A stretch of DNA of 64,000 bases. It comes from Candidatus Latescibacterota bacterium (lineage in GTDB: Bacteria > Krumholzibacteriota > Krumholzibacteriia > WVZY01). The stretch is from positions 1-64,000 of the forward strand of contig WVZY01000071.1 of assembly GCA_011772205.1 (NCBI GenBank), given 5' to 3'. Position numbers and translations under genes: made by a program. The notes under the pieces are model-generated. The model was not told the DNA's origin, made no database searches, and saw only the letters and a list, made by a program, of their open reading frames with translations. Below are positions 3,586-17,478 of this stretch, in pieces. Within the stretch, counting starts at the first letter, position 1; the number at the start of each line of letters is the position of its first letter.

Positions 3586-5199
3586 TCAAGTTGATGGTTC
3601 CACTGCTTGAACCACTTTATTGCTAAAATTGAATATTCGTGGATTTGGCTCCGGCTCCCCGCGTTCCAAATACTCTAATACCTTTGGAGGCAGTTGGTCG
3701 TAGAAACTGCCCATTCCCTCTTTGATTTTATTCAGGAAAAATGTTGGCGGCTTAATGCTTACCCCCGAATAGAAAGCTTCGAACTCACGGTCAGTTGCGA
3801 AATGGTTGCGTATTTCGACAAGCTTCCTTGCACCACCGCCTTTGTCCGAGGAAATTGTTCGGAGCAAGTTCATCCACCTCGGGAATGAGTGTTTGTTGGC
3901 TCTAAAGCGTTTCCATACCATGCGGGATGAAAAAGAAAATCTCACCAGATCGATCAAGTTATTGTAGAACTCTACATAAGAATAATTTTTGAACCTCACA
4001 TTGGAAATGGAATATCCATCGAGAAAAGGAAAAGGTATGTCGATAACCCTCTCTTCAAGCTGGTATTGATGATTGAGCGGAGCTGCGTTGCCGAATGATG
4101 TCAGAACAAGGTAATTGGGATATACCCCGGGCGCCAACTCGACAAATCTCTTGGTCAAATCGAAAGGCTCCTGCCCATCATCGGAGTCCAAGCCAAAAAT
4201 AGAATTTGTTTGCACATACGGAATGTAGTGTGAAATCAGGCGTGCCTGCTCGGCAACCGATTCGACTTTTTCCAATCCTACATTTCGACTCTGCTTGGAT
4301 TTATCATTGAACTCAAACCACGATTCGATCCCCGGGGACATCACAAGAAAGTTGTTTTTGTTCAGCCGCTTTAGATGAGGCTCGCTTAACAGAGACAGAC
4401 TGCTTTCTGCGGAAAACCTAAGTGTCCCGGATTTGACTACCGACTCGATGATCTCCATATAATCGTCAAACCGAACACCGAAGTTGGGATCGTACCAAGC
4501 TACGATAGGCGGGTTTGGCTTTTCTTGAAGAAATTTCAGATCCTCACGAATCTGGTCGTAGGGCAAGGTTTGATAATCGACCTCTGAGTCCACACAAAAA
4601 CTGCACCTGTAAGGACAACCGAAACTGCCGATGATCGGCACAACATGGATAATGCGGCTTTTGTCCAAATTCTGCTGGATGAATTTCCACCTTTCACGCA
4701 CCCCGGGTAACTCTCGAGGATGATACTCTGCATTGAGCACCACTCCTTCATTTGGGTGCGGTGAAAAGTCTTGCAGCAGATCGTGGATGATCGTCCGATC
4801 AGTCAGACCGATGACGTAATCGAAATAGTCTTTTGCATCTTCTGCGTATGCCCGGGCGTGTGGCCCTCCAAGGACAGTAACAACATTTCGCTTACGATAG
4901 ATGTTCGAAATACTATAGGCGAGGAACGCGGCCTGAGTGAAGGCGCTTATGAAGAGGATATCAATGTCATCCGGAAGTTCGCTATACAGATTCTCAAAAC
5001 CAGTATAGGTAACAAAATGGGCTTCATGACCCATCTGCTCGACCCAGACCGCAACAACCTGCGGCATGATCGAAGCGTAATTTGGATTTACCAGCTTGGC
5101 AAACAGCTTGCCGGTCGGCCGAGTAGCGATCAGATCAACGATCCCAACTTTCAAAAATTTACGATTGGTTCGTTGCTCTATGGGTTGATTGAGTTTCAT
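3586..5199 (-). CDS. B12-binding-type radical SAM protein
   Basis: A 537-residue protein with an N-terminal cobalamin-binding-like Rossmann domain (about residues 15-170; V-T-V-L-G-G-P-H-A is the usual phosphate-loop strand). A radical SAM core follows, with the iron-sulfur motif C-P-Y-R-C-S-F-C (CxxxCxxC) at about 194-201. The domain order is that of class B enzymes such as methyltransferases and cyclases. The D-x-H-x-x-G cobalamin ligand motif is not evident, so B12 may be bound base-off or not at all. The C-terminal 200 residues are aromatic-rich and not recognised. It converges on the anti-sigma gene (10 bases between stops) and looks monocistronic. The substrate cannot be told from context. 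Confidence 0.82.
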   Translation of the reverse strand: MKLNQPIEQRTNRKFLKVGIVDLIATRPTGKLFAKLVNPNYASIMPQVVAVWVEQMGHEAHFVTYTGFENLYSELPDDIDILFISAFTQAAFLAYSISNIYRKRNVVTVLGGPHARAYAEDAKDYFDYVIGLTDRTIIHDLLQDFSPHPNEGVVLNAEYHPRELPGVRERWKFIQQNLDKSRIIHVVPIIGSFGCPYRCSFCVDSEVDYQTLPYDQIREDLKFLQEKPNPPIVAWYDPNFGVRFDDYMEIIESVVKSGTLRFSAESSLSLLSEPHLKRLNKNNFLVMSPGIESWFEFNDKSKQSRNVGLEKVESVAEQARLISHYIPYVQTNSIFGLDSDDGQEPFDLTKRFVELAPGVYPNYLVLTSFGNAAPLNHQYQLEERVIDIPFPFLDGYSISNVRFKNYSYVEFYNNLIDLVRFSFSSRMVWKRFRANKHSFPRWMNLLRTISSDKGGGARKLVEIRNHFATDREFEAFYSGVSIKPPTFFLNKIKEGMGSFYDQLPPKVLEYLERGEPEPNPRIFNFSNKVVQAVEPST

Positions 5200-6053: not shown

Positions 6054-6273
6054 CGCGATCTCCTTTTCCCTCGCATAGCAGCCTCATTACACAGTGAATT
6101 CGCTGCTACACATCCTGTCCTGTCCCGTACTACTCGATCCGGGCCAACGTTCGCCGTTGAGAATGGCGTCTATATCATCGGAGCTCCGGTACCACCGTAT
6201 CTCCCGACTGCTGAATATCGGGCCACTTGGGCGGCCTATGCTCAATCAGTTTCGAAAGCCGCGGGCCCGATAG

Positions 6274-6309
6274 ATTATAAAAAGAGACCTGTGCCATGAG
6301 CCAGGTCTC
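6274..6309 (-). terminator. Intrinsic terminator, minus strand
   Basis: A perfect 8-bp stem, GAGACCTG (6284-6291) and CAGGTCTC (6302-6309), with a 10-base loop. On the minus strand it is followed by TTTTTATAAT. It would end transcripts coming from higher coordinates, before the RRM leader. Confidence 0.75.
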
Positions 6310-6820
6310 ATTTCCTCGTCTGATCTCTGGATTTTTTACACACATCTCTGGGTGTGCCTCTCACTGGCCCCAAGGGTAATTCGTCGTCAAACCTGTGTCA
6401 ATGGGGTATGTAAGCAAAAGGGAAATGTATTCAGCCCACCGCCGGGGCCACATCGATCGTAATACCTCGTATACATGTGCCGCCAAAAGGATTAGCCCAG
6501 GTTTCTCTCCTGTTTTTGCGGTCGCAGCACGGCCAAAATGGGTCGCGCGGGCACCACGTGTTGCAATCTAAGCTTATGTATTATAATAATTTAAGCACCA
6601 TCTCTCCCGGCGGGCGTCTCGGATCGCAGGGTGCGGGTCCCATCAAAACCGGTGATCATAATATGCGGCAAAGGCCCGCATGACGGTTTCACCAGGACCC
6701 TGTGGCCAGGCCAATTGGGTGCGGTCGTCCTCAGCAGTCGGATAATCCAGATCGGGATCCTTCCGGATTTCCTGAATTTCCCTCTACGCCGATTCAAGTG
6801 CAAGAGATCCGGTGGTATTG
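6310..6820. other. Non-coding stretch of about 510 bases
   Basis: It lies between the gamma-glutamyltransferase stop and the minus-strand terminator. No gene is convincing. A minus-strand open frame of about 48 codons ending near 6440 is rich in Cys, Trp and Pro but has no start codon. An AT-rich TATTATAATAATTTAAG stretch at about 6575-6595 could be a promoter for a short minus-strand RNA ending at the terminator. Confidence 0.4.
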
Positions 6821-8437
6821 CTAAATCCGCGGCCCCCCTGCCGAGCCGTCCCGACGAGGGTCGGCAGCGCCATGAAAAAGCCTTCCTTCACGCTGCACCG
6901 CTTGCACGCAGCCCATGTAAAACGAATACGGATCGCGTGCATCGATGCTGAATCCCAATTTCTCGAGTTTCGGTACGATGTTCGGATTCATCCGATCCAG
7001 CTCGAGAGAAACCTTGCCGCCGAGAGAGCAGTGAAGCCTCGGCGCTGCAATGGCTTCGTACAAGGAATATCCATGTAGGAGGCGAACGAGAACTTGAAGA
7101 ATCGATGGGGTGATGCGATCGCTTCCGGTCGACCCGATCACCAGCCATGGGCGTCTTCCACGGAAAATGATAGTCGGCGCAACACTCGCCCAAGGAACGG
7201 CACCTGGCCGCATATAATAAGGATGACTGAGGTCGGTATATTCGAAGGCATTCATATAGTTGTTATATAGAAATCCTAACTCTTTGCTGGCAACACAAGC
7301 GCCAAATACATTCTCAATCGACTGCGTGAGAGCGACGGCGCTTCCGTTCCGATCCATCACGGAAACATGCGTCGTTTCACCATATCCACGGATCCGGTTA
7401 CGCGTTTGCCGGGCTATTTTCTTTGCATAATCGAGATCAAGCATTCTCCGCTCCTCGACTTGAGCGTAAAAGTTCGGGTCGAACGGACGGTCCCGTCGGT
7501 CAATAAAAGCCCGGCGAATGACTTCAGCTAAAAACACCGCTCCAGAGGATTTATCAGGATTGTAATGTTTGAACTGCAAATGGTTAAATATGTTGAGCAT
7601 CTCAATCAGCGTCCGACCGGCTCCCGGCGGTGGCATCGTAAACAATCGATCCGAACCCATCCTGCAAGTAATGGGGCGCCTCACGATAGGCCATGGAATC
7701 TGCGCGAGATCGTCTTTACGGATAAGGCCGTCATTCTGATTCATGTCACGGTGAATAGATACTGCGATGCTGCCCTTGTAGAATTCTTCGACGCCCCTTC
7801 GAGCAATCCGGCGGAGCGTTTCAGCAAGAGCGGGCTGACAAAATCGATGTCCCACCTGTGGAGATTTCTTATTATCGATGAGGAACAAAGCGGCCGCTGG
7901 GCCTGCCTTCAGGCTTCTTCGCGTCCGTTTGGTGAGCGACCGCTGTAGCGGCGTTATGTCATAACCTTCGTCAGCAAGTCGGATTGCCGGCTCCAGTACC
8001 CGTTTGAGCTCCATACTGCCGTAGTTACGGAGCGCATAGTCCAGAACTGCCGGTGTACTGGGTACCGTCGCAGCTTTGTAACCCGTCCTGACTTCCTCGC
8101 GCGTGAGTGAGTTAGGTAAGGCACGATATGGTGCTCGTGAAGAACCGTCCAAAGCAATTTTCTTTAGCGTGGGAGCGTGATAAATGAGCATCAATGTCTG
8201 CCCGCCCAATCCCGAAGCGGCCGGCTCACACACACAAAGGGCGAAGGCGGCAGCAATGGCTGCGTCGACTGCATTCCCTCCCTCTGAGAGCATTTGTATC
8301 CCGACCTCGGTGGCACAATGATGCGCCGTAGCCACCATTCCGTATCGAGATACCGAGGCCCTCTCGAGGCTGCGCCACGGAAAAGCAGTAGGCCCAACGG
8401 GCAAGGTCTCTAGATCATCCTGTTTTATTTGCGACAT
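6821..8437 (-). CDS. Gamma-glutamyltransferase family protein
   Basis: An N-terminal-nucleophile hydrolase of the Ggt family (538 residues), which cleaves or transfers gamma-glutamyl groups, for example from glutathione. The family's self-cleavage site is visible as G-E-T-T-H-V-S, the second Thr being the expected nucleophile, and G-S-T-G-S-D-R-I as the glycine-rich substrate loop. N-G-G-N-A-V-D-A-A-I and P-P-P-G-A-G-R-T-L are also conserved. No signal peptide is seen, unlike many periplasmic Ggt proteins, so it may be cytoplasmic. The start at 8437 is preceded by GGAG and lies one base after the stop of the upstream fusion gene (TAG-A-ATG), so the two are translationally coupled. An alternative ATG at 8449 would overlap. 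Confidence 0.92.
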   Translation of the reverse strand: MSQIKQDDLETLPVGPTAFPWRSLERASVSRYGMVATAHHCATEVGIQMLSEGGNAVDAAIAAAFALCVCEPAASGLGGQTLMLIYHAPTLKKIALDGSSRAPYRALPNSLTREEVRTGYKAATVPSTPAVLDYALRNYGSMELKRVLEPAIRLADEGYDITPLQRSLTKRTRRSLKAGPAAALFLIDNKKSPQVGHRFCQPALAETLRRIARRGVEEFYKGSIAVSIHRDMNQNDGLIRKDDLAQIPWPIVRRPITCRMGSDRLFTMPPPGAGRTLIEMLNIFNHLQFKHYNPDKSSGAVFLAEVIRRAFIDRRDRPFDPNFYAQVEERRMLDLDYAKKIARQTRNRIRGYGETTHVSVMDRNGSAVALTQSIENVFGACVASKELGFLYNNYMNAFEYTDLSHPYYMRPGAVPWASVAPTIIFRGRRPWLVIGSTGSDRITPSILQVLVRLLHGYSLYEAIAAPRLHCSLGGKVSLELDRMNPNIVPKLEKLGFSIDARDPYSFYMGCVQAVQREGRLFHGAADPRRDGSAGGPRI

Positions 8438-8438
8438 T

Positions 8439-10589
8439 CTATGCTCCATCAGCGCGCAACAGTAATTGTGCCAGCAACAAGGTCCTTTGTATGAGACTAA
8501 TTCGTTTAACACATTCGTGCGGCGTGTATAAATTCCTTGCCATTGGTCCCAGACCGCAAATTACAGCGGTTTTTCCCGTTACCAATCCGCCGACTGACGG
8601 CCACGCCGATGACTCACTTTGAATATCGATTTCCCATTCAGCGGCGGTCTGCAGAATTGCTTTCGCAAGCTGCTTGTTTGCCAGTCGATCTTTCATAGGA
8701 GGTCTATCGGATACTATCTTCAGATCCCACCGAACCACGTTCTTGCCGAGTGCCTCGCGAATGCGCTTTTCCAATCCATCGGCTTTCTTTGCATCCAGAT
8801 AACTCATTAGCAGAGTAGCGTCGATCCGATGAGGAACGAGCAACGGGAAACCCACTACCTTAACATCGACAGCCGCTACAGAGAGACGATCTTTTCTCGA
8901 TGCGAGTTTTGAAATCGCTCCGAGCTTTTCGCCAAACCAAAGAAGCGCTTCCGGCTGTTTGATCGCCTGCCCCATTCTCCTCGGCCGCCCTTCGATGTGC
9001 AGTGCGTATTTCCGCTGTCCTCGCCGCTGATGGATGAAACAGTCGCCTGCGATCCCTGGACGAAGAACGATAACTTGCTTCGCACGCGCCGCAGCACGGC
9101 GTATCACTTCCTTGCTGTATAATGCATCCCTTCCTTCGTCTATATAGAACAGTACTCCGAGGCGACGGTTCCGCAGCTGTCTTTGAGCGCGTATAGATTG
9201 TAGTGCAAACTCCAGCATGACCAGCGGTGCTCTAGAAATCCCGACTCCCTCCCCATACAACCATTCGGGCTCCAACCGGAACGCCTCTACCGGAGACTCC
9301 CTGGGTATTGGAACATCGAGGTGAAGCACGAGAAGGGTTCCAGCATCCAATCCTTTCTTCGTCTGCCACGTCCACGCGGAATGCTCGTTGGATAGCTCCT
9401 CCTGCGGAGCCAATCCCAACTGCTCCAGCACCACTTCGAACTTCTTGCGAGCTTCCCGCAATCCCACCGGATCGGATGTTCGGCTGGATAGCCGGATCCA
9501 TTCCCTCAAACGCTTCTCGATCCGGTCACGACGCTGAGTGATATAGGAGAAAACAAATCTACCCGGATCCTGAATCTTCCGCGGGATCTCTGGGGGATGG
9601 GGCGTTCCGAAATAACGGGCGCTTGCCACGTCGACAAGGCGATTGACAAGTGCGGCATAATCCAGTCCTGCTGCCTTAGCAGCATGCGTATATGACCCGT
9701 GTTCTCCAAGACTCGGCAAGCTGTTTACCTCGAGTACATAAAGTCTACCTTCATGATCGAGGCGCATGTCCACGCGTGCGCAGTCGAAGCAGCCTAATGC
9801 GGAAAAAGCATCTCGGGCGATCTTCTGTGCCTTTTCAAGCTGGGCCTTCGATAAACGTGCAGGACAATGCACACGGATGCTGCGATTGGAAGTCCCCGTT
9901 TTATCCTCATACCGGTAGATCTTTGGACCTGTTCGACCGAAATTAATCTCGGCGGCAGGCAGCACCTCGACAGGACTGTTGCCAATAAGGCCGACGTTTA
10001 TCTCACGGCCGGCGACGTATCTCTCCACGAGTACAGGTTGGGAAAATTTATTGAAGATATTATCTGCAGCTTCGCGGAGTTCCTTCAGGTTTCTCACTAT
10101 TCGGATGCCAAATGACACTGCCTCGTTCTTCGGCTTCACGATTAAAGGATAATCGAGTTCAGGGGGATCGAATCCTCTTTCCTTTAGAACGGCGAATTCT
10201 GGAGTTGGAATTCCATGCTGACTGAAGATTATTTTGGAAACAACCTTGTCGAGGGCGAGAGAGTGGGCCAGTGGGCCGGAGCCGACGTAGGGGATGCCCA
10301 CCATCTCGAGTATGCTCGGCACATGCGTGTAACGTGCCTGACCCTGGATACCGTAGGATAAATTGAAAACCATCCCCGGATTTTCACCCCTCAGTACCCG
10401 CGGCATGAACTGTTCGAGTTTATCCACGAGCTCCTTATCACCCTCGATCGCGACTGCTTGATGGCCTCCCGATTTGAGGGCGTCGAGGATTCGCCGAATC
10501 GTTTTTAAGCCTATCTTCTCCTGATTGGGTATCCCGAAAAGATTAATGACACTCTTGCTGTCTCGGTTATAGACTACTGCGACTTTCAT
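8439..10589 (-). CDS. Fused D-Ala-D-Ala ligase-like ATP-grasp and M20 peptidase-like protein
   Basis: Residues 1-330 form an ATP-grasp ligase of the D-alanine:D-alanine type: Y-V-G-S-G-P-L-A-H-S-L-A-L-D-K, the nucleotide strand L-I-V-K-P-K-N-E, E-R-Y-V-A-G-R-E-I-N, and the metal-binding end V-L-E-V-N-S-L-P. Residues 340-716 resemble the M20 zinc carboxypeptidase family: L-V-L-H-L-D in place of the G-H-x-D motif, G-E-G-V-G-I-S-R-A-P where a G-x-G-x-x-D-x-K-G is expected, Y-I-D-E-G-R-D-A in place of the E-E motif, and a late T-P-H-E histidine. The bridging Asp and the catalytic Glu pair look altered, so that half may bind rather than cut. It is the first gene of a two-gene unit with gamma-glutamyltransferase. 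Together they suggest making and breaking an unusual amide, possibly a gamma-glutamyl or D-amino-acid peptide; this is inference. Confidence 0.85.
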   Translation of the reverse strand: MKVAVVYNRDSKSVINLFGIPNQEKIGLKTIRRILDALKSGGHQAVAIEGDKELVDKLEQFMPRVLRGENPGMVFNLSYGIQGQARYTHVPSILEMVGIPYVGSGPLAHSLALDKVVSKIIFSQHGIPTPEFAVLKERGFDPPELDYPLIVKPKNEAVSFGIRIVRNLKELREAADNIFNKFSQPVLVERYVAGREINVGLIGNSPVEVLPAAEINFGRTGPKIYRYEDKTGTSNRSIRVHCPARLSKAQLEKAQKIARDAFSALGCFDCARVDMRLDHEGRLYVLEVNSLPSLGEHGSYTHAAKAAGLDYAALVNRLVDVASARYFGTPHPPEIPRKIQDPGRFVFSYITQRRDRIEKRLREWIRLSSRTSDPVGLREARKKFEVVLEQLGLAPQEELSNEHSAWTWQTKKGLDAGTLLVLHLDVPIPRESPVEAFRLEPEWLYGEGVGISRAPLVMLEFALQSIRAQRQLRNRRLGVLFYIDEGRDALYSKEVIRRAAARAKQVIVLRPGIAGDCFIHQRRGQRKYALHIEGRPRRMGQAIKQPEALLWFGEKLGAISKLASRKDRLSVAAVDVKVVGFPLLVPHRIDATLLMSYLDAKKADGLEKRIREALGKNVVRWDLKIVSDRPPMKDRLANKQLAKAILQTAAEWEIDIQSESSAWPSVGGLVTGKTAVICGLGPMARNLYTPHECVKRISLIQRTLLLAQLLLRADGA

Positions 10590-11051: not shown

Positions 11052-12872
11052 ATGATAAAGAAGATCGCGCGAAGCACCCTTCAATATGCTCTGGTGTTGG
11101 TTCTTGCACATCAATGCTCTAGTTTTGCATTCGCCCAAGGCTCACTGGAAGCTGACAATTACAAGGGATGGAGACTCTCTTCTCTCGAGATCGAAGGTTT
11201 GGATAAAGGTCTGACTTCTGAGCTCAAGCGGGGTTTGGTGATTCCCAGCCAATTTTCGCGCTTTCGGAGACGCGGGCCTGTCTTCTATCCAAAAAGTCTC
11301 ACTGAAGATATAAAGCGAGCACAACTGTTCCTCGCTAGACGCGGCTTTCCCTATGCAACGATCAAGCCTAGATTCGAGCCGCACCCTACGAAGGAAACAT
11401 TTTCCTTGATTTTTAATATAATTCCCGGATCTCCGGTTGCGATCGAATCTATTACATTAGAAGGATTTCCATCATCAGTTGAAAGTGCGGCGCGTGTTAC
11501 GCCTGGCCTAGGTAAGGGAGACGTATTTTCAGAGATTCGTGTAGAACGGACGAGGGCTTCTCTGGAGTCGATGCTCAAGCATGCGGGCTTCGCACATGCA
11601 CGTGTCACCACAGATCTGTGGAGGATTGATTCCACGCACGTGAAGCTCGGCTTCGATGCGGAACCGGGAGCCATGTACTTGATTGATGACATCCTTGTTG
11701 AAGGTGCAAATCAGGATTTGGTTCCTCTGATTCGAAAAACCTCAGGAGTAAAAAGAGGCGCACGATACTCCCCGCTCATCCTGCAGGAGGCGCAAGACAA
11801 TCTCCGCTTACTCGATTTGTTCCGGCAGATCCGCCTGACAACTCAAGAAGCTGCACCAGACTCGCTGGATGTGCTTGCAGACCTCGTCCTTCGAAAGCCG
11901 AGGTCGTTCGAAACAGGAATCGGCTACTGGACGGACGACCAGATCCGCGTTCGTGCGAACTGGATTCACCGTAATCTCTTCCGGGCAGGGCGGGGATTTT
12001 CAGTCGGAGGATCCGCTTCCAGGTTTTTGCAGACGGCCAATGTTTCTCTGTGGTGGCCGGCGCTCATAGGGGCGCGCACGCGTGAGGTGCTATCTGCAAA
12101 AGTCGAGAGTCAGCTCGAAGACAGCTATGATCTTCTAAGCATCGGAGGAGAATTATCATCTATCTACCGGCATTCCCTTGCTACGACGATGCGTTTCGGC
12201 ATTTCCGTATCCAACGTCGATGTCTCGATCGATACGGAAATGAGCGATGCATTCATTGAGCAAGGTGGATTGCTCACTGTCGTTTCTTTTCGATGGACTC
12301 GCAGCAGCGTCGATAATCGAGTATCCCCAAAAAGCGGAACGACAACTTGGGTGCACACGGAATGGGCACCCAACGGATTCGTATCCGAGAACCACTTCTT
12401 ATCTTTAGAGACCTCCGGCGCCCTTTTCAGACCATTGTCGAATCGTACCGTTTTGGCCATCCGGATCGCCGGGGGCATTGCTTCACCCACTGGCGAATCA
12501 TTAGACCTCCTGCCGAACAAACGCTTCTATTCGGGTGGCGCCAGCTCGATGCGCGGCTTCAAAAGAAAGAAGCTTGGCCCATTGGATACGAACGGTTTTC
12601 CTCTGGGCGGCGAAATAAAGCTGGAGGCATCCGTCGAATTGCGCACTCCGCTGGTGTGGCGGTTCCGCGGGGCGCTATTTATAGATGCAGGTCAAGTGTG
12701 GCGGTACATCGAGGACATCTCGGCTGATGATTTAGAAATTGCATCTGGCCCCGGTTTGAGGCTGCAAACGCCGGTGGGACCCGTTCGTGCCGATCTCGCT
12801 CGTCGGGTGAGAAAAACGGAGGCCACCCAGCCGCTGTGGGTGTTTCATTTGTCCATTGGATATCCGTTCTGA
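11052..12872 (+). CDS. TamA/BamA-like Omp85 outer-membrane assembly protein
   Basis: A 606-residue Omp85-superfamily protein with a Sec signal peptide (cleavage near F-A-F-A-Q, residue 29). POTRA domains fill about residues 40-290, with G-x-x-Y-S at the end of a POTRA. The C-terminal 16-strand barrel-type region carries the conserved G-G-A-S-S-M-R-G-F-K-R loop, the Omp85 'VRGY/F' signature that enters the barrel. The chain ends in an aromatic residue (Y-P-F), as outer-membrane barrels do. TamA works with TamB in inserting outer-membrane proteins and moving lipids. The TamB-like gene follows at once, which supports TamA over BamA or a two-partner transporter. Confidence 0.88.
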   Translation: MIKKIARSTLQYALVLVLAHQCSSFAFAQGSLEADNYKGWRLSSLEIEGLDKGLTSELKRGLVIPSQFSRFRRRGPVFYPKSLTEDIKRAQLFLARRGFPYATIKPRFEPHPTKETFSLIFNIIPGSPVAIESITLEGFPSSVESAARVTPGLGKGDVFSEIRVERTRASLESMLKHAGFAHARVTTDLWRIDSTHVKLGFDAEPGAMYLIDDILVEGANQDLVPLIRKTSGVKRGARYSPLILQEAQDNLRLLDLFRQIRLTTQEAAPDSLDVLADLVLRKPRSFETGIGYWTDDQIRVRANWIHRNLFRAGRGFSVGGSASRFLQTANVSLWWPALIGARTREVLSAKVESQLEDSYDLLSIGGELSSIYRHSLATTMRFGISVSNVDVSIDTEMSDAFIEQGGLLTVVSFRWTRSSVDNRVSPKSGTTTWVHTEWAPNGFVSENHFLSLETSGALFRPLSNRTVLAIRIAGGIASPTGESLDLLPNKRFYSGGASSMRGFKRKKLGPLDTNGFPLGGEIKLEASVELRTPLVWRFRGALFIDAGQVWRYIEDISADDLEIASGPGLRLQTPVGPVRADLARRVRKTEATQPLWVFHLSIGYPF

Positions 12873-12924
12873 GGGGATGCCAACAATTGCCCGTAAAGAT
12901 ATCCGATCCAATGGTAGAAGCGCA

Positions 12925-15900
12925 ATGAGCCAACAAAACAAGAAGACTCGAAAAGCAGTGAAAATTTTAATAATCATTGGCATTGCATTCGTTGGGATCG
13001 GATTGATGCTCATCCTCCTTTTTAACATAAGGCCCGTGCGCAATCAGTTGCTAGCCTGGATTCTAAATAAGGCTGATGCATCAATGACCGGCACGATACA
13101 AGTGGGTGAGGCAATGTGGTCTTCGCCCGGCACGATTGAACTATCGAATTTAATCTGGACAGACGAAAGCGATACGCTTCTTTCAGCTGATCGCTTTATC
13201 ATTGCCGTGAAGCTGCTGCCACTATTTAAAAGGGACGCGAGAATTACAGAGCTAATCCTAGAGGGGCTTTCGGCCGATGTGCCATCTATCCGCAATCGCA
13301 TGCCATACACAGCACCGAGCAAGAACAACTCTGAAAAACGTTCTATCTTGAACTTGCTTCTGCGCAAAGGATCTGTACCAGGCCTGCCCTCGATCTCGGT
13401 CGGCAGCTTGAGAATCGCGGGCAGGGCTATCGATATCGATGAAAAGACATTACTGAGCGCTTTGGATATCTCTGCAAGCTTTGATCTCTCCCGAGGGCGT
13501 GCACCCAAGTTCCATTTGAATCGGCTCTCAGTGATCGACAGCGTTATTGGCTGGAGGATCGATCACGCCCATGCAGAGATAAACCTGGAGCATGGCAGGA
13601 TGGAAGGCAGTGGCAAGGGACGTTTCGCACCCGGCTGGCCATTTTATTTATCTCTGAGTTCCCCGAAAGAAAATCGATTTTTGCTGACAGTATCGCTGCG
13701 TGATGGATTTGCGCCCCCCGATGCACCCGGTTTGACCATAAACGCTCAAATTGAACGGCTTGGGTTCGACTTGCAAACAGTGAAATTCGAAATGCTCTTG
13801 AAGTCTCCGGACACCGACGATCTGATCCGGATACCAGATCTTGTAGAGCGACTAAAAGCTACCAATCCATTGGAAGGGATAACTACCTCGATCGATGGAT
13901 CGTTGCGATTCCGACCTGCTCTCTCAGGCGTTGCAACAATCGATGTGAACCAGAATGCATGGTTGCAGGGCGCACATGCGAGGCTCGATTTTCAAAGGCA
14001 ACGATTTCATGTGGACTCACTCTGGGTAAGCCTGCCCGATCTCGCAGCAAATGGAAACGCTGCGCTGGCAAATGATTCCATCAGAGCACGGATCGAGACG
14101 AACGTCCGGGGGATGCAATGGCTGCTCAACATTCTGCCTCGCTTCCGAGCTCCGGATGCGCTGCGCGCTGACGCAGTTATGACAATGAATGGGAAAATAG
14201 ACGCTCCGCATACCAAACTTCAAATCAATGCAAAGGCCCATAAGGGTGCGTTCGAACTCGAATCCCTCAACATTGATGCCGAGCTACCCGGCGACCGCAG
14301 TCTTCCGGCCATGCTTCGACTGGAAGCCGAAGCTCGGGATTTAGCGCTTTCGACGAACGCGGATATTGAATGGCGCGGCAAACAAACCATCCATCTCGCT
14401 CCGCTCGTCCTGCAGGAAGCCTCGGATCGGAAGCGGCGAGGCCTTTATGGAGCGAAAACGGGTCGAATCGAATACAAAAATGGATCTCTATCCGTCGACA
14501 ACCTGAGCGTCATTGGAATTCTTGGCAATGTTCGCATGGATGGAAAAATCGACAAGAACATGCGGGGATCTTATCGAATACAGTGCACCTGGCCTCGGTT
14601 GCCAGAAATATCCACTCGATTCCTCGAATTGCCTCCGGCTCACGTGGATTCACTTCGCGCTCGCTGGCGGATGGACGCCCCATTTTTCTTGAACATCAAT
14701 GGCCGGGTGGCCTCTACAGGGGGATTCCCAAAAAGTCGAGCTACGGGCACCCTCGCACTGCCGGGACCGAGGGTATTCACCGAACTGTTTCCCCAGGATG
14801 CCCGGCTCGACGATCTTGGGTCGCTCCGGGGCAATCTCGCGCTTGAAATAGCCCAATCCCACGATGGGCCTCGGTATAGTTTTTCCCTTGATCTGAATCC
14901 GACCGAGTGGATCGACTCCTCGGCAATCGTGTTTCACGGACAAGGGCGCACCCTCGAAATCGATTCCGTTGGTATCGCATTCGAAGACGTAGATCTTGGA
15001 GTCGAGGGCACGCTGAAAAATAATGTGTCGGATGTAAGAGGCAAGTTGAACGTGCAGAGCGCCCGGTTGCTCCATCGTCTGAATCCCCGGAACGAGGATT
15101 TGGACATCAGCATTCTTGCTCGGGCGGTGCTAAAAGGAAAAACTGCATCACCGGATCTATCCTCATCTTTCATCGCGAGTTTGTCTGGACCCAATTATCG
15201 CATCCCGAAATTTTCTGGGAACGTGCAATGGTCGGACAGCGGCTTTGCAGCGGAGATCAATGCCCTGGAAGGATTGATGGCGTCGACTCTGCATCTGGCT
15301 GAATTTAGCTCTACCTATAGATCGTCCGTGAACCAAAAATCCATGTTTCCAGGCCGATTTATTCTCCATATGCGCGGAGAAGGACTCGATTACGTTCACT
15401 CAGCAACCATTGATAGAAAAACAGACCTGTGGACACTTCAATGTGACTCTTTGAAGCTAGCACTCCGCAACCGGGACATCCGCACTTCCCGACCCTTCTG
15501 CATCAGCTACTCGCCCGAGAAATACAAGATAGAAGTAGAGGATTTTCATCTGGCAGGCACACTCGGAAGTATCCGTGCATCTGGATATGCCGGATCGGAC
15601 AGCGCAGACTTGACAATCGATGCCGATGAGACGCTCCCCGAAGTACCTCCCTCTCTCAAAATGCCTCCAGAACTCTGGCCTGATCGATTTACCGCTCGCT
15701 TGATTATCGGTCACAAAAACCGCCTGAGTGCTTTTGCGAACGTACGGGGGTTGATATTCCCAGATAATCGGCGCCCCGAAGTTACGATGAATGTCTTAGC
15801 CAGAAATGACACCATCGATGCAGTGCTATCGGTAACCGATAAAAGCGATTCCATTGCCACTATCAAGCTTCTCCTCCCCATATCGCTATCAGTATTACCA

Positions 15901-17478
15901 CCCAAGGCGGAAGCTCGAGATGGAAATGTTCATTGCGAGGCTTTACTGAATGATGTCCCCCTTCCAACGGGAGGATTCAAACAATATGCATCGGCATCCC
16001 AAATTGCCCGTCTCAACGGCCGCCTGCACGTCGAAGGCCAGTCGAGCCACCCATCTGCATCCATGAAAGCGTGCATCACGTTTCCAGCATGGCCGAAGTT
16101 ATCGGCATACAGATTGGATTTCGAAGCAAGCCTTGCTCCCAAGAGAACAACTCTTGTTGCTCCCGGCCAAAACAGCGGCGATGATACTCGGCAATCTCCA
16201 GAGCAAAAACCAGATCACAACGATGGGCTGCGAGGTTCTATGACTTTGAGCAGGCAGAATCAAATGTTGTTGCGAACACGTTTTGATTACCCTTTGGCTT
16301 GGTCGCTTTTTCCGCCACTAATGGAACCCGATAGGAACCGCGAAATGCAGCTCCATCTCAAATCAGAGGAACTTGACTTATCGGATTTTGATGGTTTTCT
16401 CCCTCCAAATGTTGGGCTTGAAGGCCAGGGAAAAATCGACTTTGCTGCTTCCGGCCCCATAGATTGCCCCAACCTGAACGGTGAATTTGCAGTTCGCCAG
16501 CTGAGAATCAATCTCGCTGATGGCACGCGTGTATCCGCTCAAGCGGACATTCGATTCCAAGGAACTGCTAAGCGTCCTTCTTTAACGGGGAATATCGAAA
16601 TTCAAAATGGTATTTTACGCATTCCTGATCCGCCGAAGAATTTTCATCCAAAAGAAGGAACGGCAATCCTCTGGGAACAACAACCCCCAGGATCCGAAAA
16701 GCAACAACCGCACGAAACCGGACGCGGAAAATCAAAATCCAGAAAAAAAGAGACTGATATCGAAATTGCTGCGGACGTTACCATCAAAATTCCTTCTGGA
16801 CTTTGGATCCGCGGTCAGGGGCTCGGCGTTGAACTCTCCGGTGAGCTGCGTATAGTTCAGAAGGGTTCTTACCCAACGCTCACGGGCAACTTGCGTGCCG
16901 TTAGAGGCCACCTGGTCTTTATCGGCCGGACATTCCAGATGGAACGCGGTTCTGTTGTTTTCTACGGCGAGGATGAGGTGAATCCATCACTGAACATCGC
17001 CATGTCAAGCAACGTGGAAGGAACTCTCATCCGTGTCGCTTTTCGCGGCACGCTTCAAAAGCCCGAGCTTGTCCTGACATCAGAACCCGAGATGACGGAG
17101 GGTGACATCATGTCCGTTCTTCTGTTCGGAAAATCACTCGAAGAGCTCGATCACGACCAGATGAACTTGCTTCAGCGACGGGCCAGCGACATTGTGACTT
17201 CTTTTGGCCTGGCGCAGCTTGAATCTCGTTTGTCACGTCAATTGGGCGTCGATATGGTCAGTTTTCGAAAAGGAAGCAGAGACGACAAACGCACGTCTGT
17301 GATAATAGGCAAATATATAAGCCGTCGAGCACTGCTGAAATACGAACAGGTCCTCGAAGAGCAGGCGAGCTTCTTTGTGAATCTGGAATACTTTCTGACC
17401 AGGAATTTCAAGATTGAAACGCTTCTCGGGAAACAAAATCAATCTGGCATCGAATTCGATTGGTCCAAAGAGTATTGA
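12925..17478 (+). CDS. TamB-like translocation/assembly module protein (DUF490)
   Basis: A very long protein (about 1,517 residues) with one N-terminal membrane anchor (I-L-I-I-I-G-I-A-F-V-G-I-G-L) and a long, beta-rich, repetitive periplasmic part, as in AsmA/TamB bridge proteins that carry lipids between membranes. The last 300 residues match the TamB C-terminal domain: G-N-L-R-A-V-R-G, F-Q-M-E-R-G-S-V-V-F-Y-G, and E-G-D-I-M-S-V-L-L-F-G-K near the end. I chose the ATG at 12925 because the anchor then begins after about 15 residues. ATG 12877 (behind GAGGGG, but with almost no spacing) and a start at 12856 overlapping the TamA-like gene are alternatives. Confidence 0.88.
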   Translation: MSQQNKKTRKAVKILIIIGIAFVGIGLMLILLFNIRPVRNQLLAWILNKADASMTGTIQVGEAMWSSPGTIELSNLIWTDESDTLLSADRFIIAVKLLPLFKRDARITELILEGLSADVPSIRNRMPYTAPSKNNSEKRSILNLLLRKGSVPGLPSISVGSLRIAGRAIDIDEKTLLSALDISASFDLSRGRAPKFHLNRLSVIDSVIGWRIDHAHAEINLEHGRMEGSGKGRFAPGWPFYLSLSSPKENRFLLTVSLRDGFAPPDAPGLTINAQIERLGFDLQTVKFEMLLKSPDTDDLIRIPDLVERLKATNPLEGITTSIDGSLRFRPALSGVATIDVNQNAWLQGAHARLDFQRQRFHVDSLWVSLPDLAANGNAALANDSIRARIETNVRGMQWLLNILPRFRAPDALRADAVMTMNGKIDAPHTKLQINAKAHKGAFELESLNIDAELPGDRSLPAMLRLEAEARDLALSTNADIEWRGKQTIHLAPLVLQEASDRKRRGLYGAKTGRIEYKNGSLSVDNLSVIGILGNVRMDGKIDKNMRGSYRIQCTWPRLPEISTRFLELPPAHVDSLRARWRMDAPFFLNINGRVASTGGFPKSRATGTLALPGPRVFTELFPQDARLDDLGSLRGNLALEIAQSHDGPRYSFSLDLNPTEWIDSSAIVFHGQGRTLEIDSVGIAFEDVDLGVEGTLKNNVSDVRGKLNVQSARLLHRLNPRNEDLDISILARAVLKGKTASPDLSSSFIASLSGPNYRIPKFSGNVQWSDSGFAAEINALEGLMASTLHLAEFSSTYRSSVNQKSMFPGRFILHMRGEGLDYVHSATIDRKTDLWTLQCDSLKLALRNRDIRTSRPFCISYSPEKYKIEVEDFHLAGTLGSIRASGYAGSDSADLTIDADETLPEVPPSLKMPPELWPDRFTARLIIGHKNRLSAFANVRGLIFPDNRRPEVTMNVLARNDTIDAVLSVTDKSDSIATIKLLLPISLSVLPPKAEARDGNVHCEALLNDVPLPTGGFKQYASASQIARLNGRLHVEGQSSHPSASMKACITFPAWPKLSAYRLDFEASLAPKRTTLVAPGQNSGDDTRQSPEQKPDHNDGLRGSMTLSRQNQMLLRTRFDYPLAWSLFPPLMEPDRNREMQLHLKSEELDLSDFDGFLPPNVGLEGQGKIDFAASGPIDCPNLNGEFAVRQLRINLADGTRVSAQADIRFQGTAKRPSLTGNIEIQNGILRIPDPPKNFHPKEGTAILWEQQPPGSEKQQPHETGRGKSKSRKKETDIEIAADVTIKIPSGLWIRGQGLGVELSGELRIVQKGSYPTLTGNLRAVRGHLVFIGRTFQMERGSVVFYGEDEVNPSLNIAMSSNVEGTLIRVAFRGTLQKPELVLTSEPEMTEGDIMSVLLFGKSLEELDHDQMNLLQRRASDIVTSFGLAQLESRLSRQLGVDMVSFRKGSRDDKRTSVIIGKYISRRALLKYEQVLEEQASFFVNLEYFLTRNFKIETLLGKQNQSGIEFDWSKEY

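Follow-up and report, generated by a model that had tools for sequence, protein, structure and literature searches.

The window analysed here is the whole of a 64,000-nucleotide stretch from a Candidatus Latescibacterota bacterium (assembly GCA_011772205.1, contig WVZY01000071.1, positions 1 to 64,000 of the forward strand). Its minus strand carries two consecutive open reading frames: the first (10589–8439, 716 amino acids) joins an ATP-grasp domain to an M20 peptidase-like domain, and the second (8437–6821, 538 amino acids) encodes a homologue of gamma-glutamyltransferase (Ggt). Both halves of the fusion are found in one chain by Pfam and by Foldseek, as a sequence-only reading of this DNA had proposed, and the stop/start coupling that it described, TAG-A-ATG, is read directly at 8441–8435: the stop occupies 8441–8439, a single A stands at 8438 and the ATG of the Ggt-like gene lies at 8437–8435. 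A GGAG at 8447–8444 is plausibly the ribosome site of the second gene. ATP-grasp amidoligase operons with hydrolase partners are a known kind, and this system is a variant of it.

A scan covering about 85,000 species genomes recovered nine full-length or nearly full-length relatives of the fusion, 55–60% identical to it, in Planctomycetota, Nitrospirota, Myxococcota/'Deltaproteobacteria', SAR324 and Actinomycetota. Within its own phylum, the window-type fusion occurs in 3 of 80 genomes, one copy (G002) being a fragment that the end of its contig truncates; in four other groups surveyed it occurs in 1 of 284, 5 of 243, 1 of 200 and 2 of 3 genomes. This patchy spread suggests lateral transfer. 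An assembly or frameshift artefact absent from relatives, for which the sequence-only reading had allowed, is rejected by the full-length copies in several phyla: the fusion is real and old.

The neighbourhood is also conserved. At 14 of 15 loci of the window type (type A, Table 1), the Ggt-like gene directly follows the fusion, and in 13 of those 14 a gene resembling N-formylglutamate amidohydrolase (FGase, PF05013) directly follows in turn, commonly with overlapping ends. The usual order is therefore fusion, Ggt-like, FGase-like. The sequence-only reading overlooked this third gene, as well as a second, related fusion in the same genome (type D). No FGase was detected anywhere in the window and no remnant of one downstream of the Ggt-like gene, so a hidden remnant is rejected and the window has lost the FGase from its usual position. 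The one FGase of this genome lies on another contig (L039:9820-10515), is close to the operon type and is followed by a gene for an MscS-type channel; in a relative (G004, L023), an FGase and MscS pair follows the Ggt-like gene.

Table 1. Features of the window operon and of sister loci with the same ATP-grasp subfamily
Feature	Location	Strand	Basis
ATP-grasp (Ddl-like) domain, predicted amide ligase, fusion residues 1–330	9600..10589	minus	Pfam PF07478, alignment with own Ddl, invariant columns
M20/carboxypeptidase G2-like domain, fusion residues 346–716, degraded metal ligands, very probably a pseudo-hydrolase	8439..9554	minus	Alignment, profile and fold matches
Lid/dimerisation subdomain of the M20 fold, about residues 524–629, strand-helix-strand-strand-helix-strand	8703..9020	minus	AlphaFold model secondary structure
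Translationally coupled junction: GGAG, TAG stop, a single base, ATG start of the Ggt-like gene	8435..8447	minus	Direct sequence reading
Ggt-like N-terminal nucleophile (Ntn) amidohydrolase, 538 amino acids, catalytic Thr355 kept, gamma-Glu pocket replaced, without signal peptide	6821..8437	minus	PF01019, TIGR00066, pocket table, N-terminus
Position of the FGase-like third gene in relatives; FGase absent here	6054..6820	minus	Neighbour comparison
Type A, window-type: fusion, Ggt-like, FGase-like
Type B: class I glutamine amidotransferase (190 amino acids) directly upstream of another ATP-grasp/pseudo-M20 fusion	L060–L064
Type C: stand-alone ligase, KamA-type aminomutase, intact M20	L024, L025, L065
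Type D: aminomutase, intact M20, second fusion (37% identical), transglutaminase-like protein; Ggt-like gene nearby	L005:901-14187 (own genome, contig C25)

Divergent from the operon lies a TamA/TamB-like pair (Omp85 and TamB, 11052–17478). A radical S-adenosylmethionine (SAM) protein with a weak match to a B12-binding domain is encoded near the operon, outside it, on the minus strand (3586–5199). At a Nitrospirota locus (L007:3011-4999), a methyltransferase fused to a Ddl-like ATP-grasp domain stands a few genes from the operon.

The ligase half and the M20 half

The N-terminal half matches the Pfam model Dala_Dala_lig_C (PF07478) over residues 122–319 at 1.2e-42, with 146 bits against a cut-off of 24, and in profile and fold searches the Ddl/Van ligases are its best family and fold matches, with DdlA/DdlB as the best PDB entries. 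What it shares with Ddl is the ATP-grasp fold and the ATP/Mg-binding residues, R272, D274, E287 and N289, all kept in an alignment with the Ddl of the same genome. The differences lie elsewhere. A Pfam search gives no match to the Ddl N-domain PF01820, the fusion falls under the cut-off of every NCBIfam Ddl/Van model listed (best 194 versus 243 bits), and in the same alignment the donor-side residues of the H63/E68/E15 type (E. coli numbering) are replaced. Where Ddl has HGxxGEDGxxQxxLE, the fusion has YGIQGQARYTHxPxxLE, and IQGxxRYTHxPxxLE is the signature across its ATP-grasp subfamily. An M20 domain is attached, and the genome holds a separate, true Ddl. Judged by these features, the ligase half resembles D-Ala-D-Ala ligase and is distinct from it; the earlier label 'D-Ala-D-Ala-ligase-like' stands for the fold and not for the donor side.

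In the C-terminal half, the match to Peptidase_M20 (PF01546; residues 422–711, 3.5e-5) reaches 24.2 bits, just under the cut-off of 24.6, as expected for a degraded copy. Sequence profiles match carboxypeptidase G2 (CPG2) at 2e-10 with the whole fusion and at 5e-10 with the M20 half alone. An AlphaFold model built with ten homologues as input (mean predicted local distance difference test score, pLDDT, of 69; mostly 80–90 in the M20 part) matches DdlB (2.5e-19) and CPG2 (2.8e-19, TMt 0.68) about equally, within one chain. The M20 fold is thus complete, catalytic and lid parts alike, with CPG2 as its closest solved structure.

In contrast to this intact fold, the two-metal site is degraded in all 21 fusions aligned, whereas its ligands are kept in 4 of 4 intact M20 genes linked to such operons. 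Across type A, the bridging Asp has become I, S, V, G, R, A or T; the EE pair has become EG, losing the second Glu; the E200-type ligand is Arg in every copy (the invariant R510); the last His ligand is Y, G or N; and HxD is partly kept, with His replaced by Gln in 6 of 15 copies. The altered motifs noticed in the window protein are therefore fixed in its relatives, and the active site is incomplete in every fused one. Given that the intact neighbours keep their ligands, the fused M20 domain is very probably a pseudo-hydrolase and not the trimming enzyme that had been suggested.

The fused M20 halves of types B and D have lost other metal-site positions than those of type A, and all fused halves form one clade (support 99/99) in a tree computed without the distant M20 paralogues of this genome, which gave long-branch noise. 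This pattern would fit one fusion event followed by divergent decay of the metal site. Mean identity among type A copies is 68% in the ATP-grasp half and 48% in the M20 half, a difference to be expected of a catalytic ligase joined to a non-catalytic M20 half. The latter nevertheless has more than 50 invariant columns in ten sequences and is thus under constraint, only not that of an M20 enzyme. It is best read as a dimerisation or ligand-sensing module.

The Ggt-like partner

The second protein matches G_glu_transpept (PF01019) over its whole length at 1e-118, and scores 350 bits with the NCBIfam model TIGR00066, under the cut-off of 357.85. In common with Ggt, a T3 Ntn hydrolase, it has full-length homology, the Ntn fold and the autoprocessing and catalytic Thr (Thr355), which is invariant among these proteins. 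It differs in lacking a signal peptide, in five altered positions of the gamma-Glu pocket and in its clade: the operon enzymes group with the type D and Bradyrhizobium copies, apart from canonical Ggts (99/97, with a long-branch warning). As the sequence-only reading had noted for the window protein, no type A copy has a signal peptide, judged by the hydropathy of the N-terminal extension alone; the extensions are polar and mostly about 30 residues long.

Relative to E. coli Ggt, the type A pocket reads R114→S, N411→E, Q430→Y, D433→A, S462→A and G484→S, with S463 kept. These changes are the same at nearly every position across 12 of 12 type A copies examined; one (L010) still has D at the D433 position. 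By contrast, a canonical Ggt of the same genome (L068) keeps the native pattern except for Q430→E. D433-equivalent changes in real Ggts abolish transpeptidation (PMC8062742), and the loss of this residue in the operon enzyme recalls class IV cephalosporin acylases, which have Asn in its place (PMC8062742). With the pocket so uniformly altered, the gamma-glutamyl transfer named in the sequence-only reading looks doubtful, and amide hydrolysis appears to fit better. At one locus (L014:10159-11874) the Ggt-like gene is split by an in-frame stop; the copy in a close relative (L012) is intact.

Sister loci and a predicted make-and-break cycle

The same ATP-grasp subfamily recurs in other gene settings (Table 1). 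Type B is possibly an amidating variant. Types C and D bring KamA-type aminomutases, and the type D locus holds two KamA-type radical SAM genes and a DUF3857/transglutaminase protein. On the Bradyrhizobium barranii plasmid pBb323S2b (L082:4282-9047), a KamA-family protein, a Ggt-like protein and a 7TM protein share an operon with an ATP-grasp ligase; the plasmid is conjugative and comes from a soybean isolate, and ligase relatives on other rhizobial plasmids mostly occur without these partners. Elsewhere (L026:7147-9117), a 7TM-transglutaminase domain (PF14402) is fused to an ATP-grasp domain of the subfamily, with a TGA reported inside the match. For the aminomutases of types C and D, glutamate 2,3-aminomutase (TIGR04368) is the best of all models, at 572–600 bits, under its cut-off of 650. 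In the type D enzyme, both lysine-binding aspartates of lysine 2,3-aminomutase (D293 and D330) are replaced, by N and K. Together, the glutamate-2,3-aminomutase-like genes, the CPG2-like M20 and the Ggt and FGase folds of the relatives point to an acidic, glutamate-like building block.

On balance, these features favour a cytosolic, ATP-dependent cycle that would make and break a small, probably acidic, amide or dipeptide. The N-terminal half would activate a carboxylate as an acyl phosphate with ATP and couple it to an amine, a step suggested by the fold and the conserved ATP-grasp residues; the product would be a dipeptide or similar amide, not D-Ala-D-Ala. The M20 half should be unable to hydrolyse now that its two-metal site is gone; its part would be to dimerise and to bind a ligand, and it would most likely sense or present the former substrate of its ancestor. 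An amide of the pathway would then be cleaved by the Ggt-like Ntn enzyme translated together with the fusion, acting as a hydrolase and not as a gamma-glutamyl transferase. Finally, the FGase-like metalloenzyme would remove a further acyl group or cleave the product. With a conserved fusion and a real coupling, the unit does look like the unusual amide or peptide pathway that had been suspected. We found no description of this gene combination in the open-access literature searched; subscription journals lie mostly outside that coverage, and parts of the combination may figure in older comparative genomics of amidoligases.

Several observations weigh against this cycle or parts of it. A Phycisphaerae copy of the fusion (L006) has neither a Ggt nor an FGase beside it, which means that the ligase can work in the absence of these partners. 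The N-terminus of the ATP-grasp domain is of low confidence in the AlphaFold model (pLDDT below 50 at residues 61–113). Single pocket changes can leave Ggts active, R109S in the B. licheniformis enzyme keeping 85% (PMC8062742), and gamma-glutamyl hydrolysis may thus still be within reach of the Ggt-like enzyme. Finally, a glutamate-2,3-aminomutase-like gene is absent (at E ≤ 1e-60) from 7 of 16 type A genomes (G080, G081, G082, G085, G086, G088 and G813), and most of the remainder have only weaker KamA matches. Beta-glutamate, a candidate raised by the sister loci, therefore cannot be the general substrate and is rejected for the window operon.

Alternatives to the proposed cycle differ in how far they depart from it. 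A D-Ala-D-Ala ligase variant serving the cell wall or antibiotic resistance is highly improbable: Ddl/Van enzymes are indeed the best fold and family matches, yet the score stays under all of their listed cut-offs, the donor-site residues are absent, a true Ddl is encoded separately and no cell-wall genes lie nearby. We also think it very unlikely that the M20 half has remained catalytic, whether through a rearranged metal site or without metal, in a fusion that would both make and cut its product. The loss of the bridging Asp, the second Glu and the E200-type ligand, together with the frequent Gln in HxD, speaks against such an enzyme despite the clear constraint on this half and the retention, in most type A copies, of the HxD Asp and the first Glu of EE (the general base); moreover, the positions lost in types B and D are others, a sign of drift and not of one site re-engineered. 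A glutathione-like, gamma-glutamyl cycle, with the ATP-grasp half making a gamma-glutamyl peptide and the Ggt homologue transpeptidating it in the cytosol, would account for the strong Ggt homology. Some Ggts do tolerate individual pocket substitutions, and that of B. subtilis naturally has Glu423 and Glu442 (PMC8062742). In the operon enzyme, however, five gamma-Glu-binding residues are replaced together and almost identically, D433 among them, and the score falls below the Ggt equivalog cut-off, making this reading unlikely.

The remaining proposals concern what the product and the M20 half are for. By analogy with N-acetylglutaminylglutamine amide (NAGGN) or beta-amino-acid solutes, the product could be a compatible solute of glutamate-like units, made by the ligase under salt stress and later recycled by both amidohydrolases. 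Beta-glutamate is a known solute (PMC1224877), eam genes are under Na+ riboswitches (PMC9337991), sister ligases sit with glutamate-2,3-aminomutase-like genes, and FGase adjoins an MscS mechanosensitive channel gene at the two loci described above. That adjacency is confined to two related genomes, however, many type A genomes lack an aminomutase, and neither transporters nor stress regulators accompany the operon consistently. The case for a compatible-solute role is weak, and we judge such a role fairly unlikely. Within the make-and-break cycle, a tentative and still minority possibility is that the M20 half acts as an allosteric sensor, having lost its metals after fusion while still binding the amide product, with the unrelated Ggt-like and FGase-like hydrolases taking over the breaking. 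If so, one protein would both make the product and feel its level.

Present in about six phyla with a fixed set of operon partners, this ligase/pseudo-peptidase fusion implies a pathway that is portable and whose metabolite seems never to have been named. Automated annotation would call its two genes 'D-Ala-D-Ala ligase' and 'gamma-glutamyltransferase'; most likely they are neither. In evolutionary terms the case is a clean one: a hydrolase joined to a synthetase has lost its metal site, and the sister hydrolases found next to sister ligases are still intact.

Comparison with known systems

Like N-formylglutamate amidohydrolase (FGase/HutG), the third gene of the operon passes the PF05013 cut-off, at 137–147 bits. 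Unlike HutG, it falls far below the equivalog cut-off (59 bits versus 278.75 with TIGR02017 for the L009 copy), and no histidine-degradation context was seen. The type C and D clusters share with the AblA/AblB N-acetyl-beta-lysine pathway an aminomutase that supplies an unusual amino acid, and with the window the ATP-grasp subfamily, their own M20 partner being intact; the window operon differs from both in having Ggt-like and FGase-like enzymes, the latter in its relatives, instead of an aminomutase. The operon for the osmolyte NAGGN combines an ATP-grasp/acetyltransferase fusion synthetase, an asparagine-synthetase-like gene and a dedicated M42 peptidase. No NAGGN-type genes were noticed beside the operon, although no search was aimed at them. 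Likened by description, the two systems differ in their other domains and partner enzymes, and share the logic of a fused ATP-grasp dipeptide synthetase that travels with a hydrolase.

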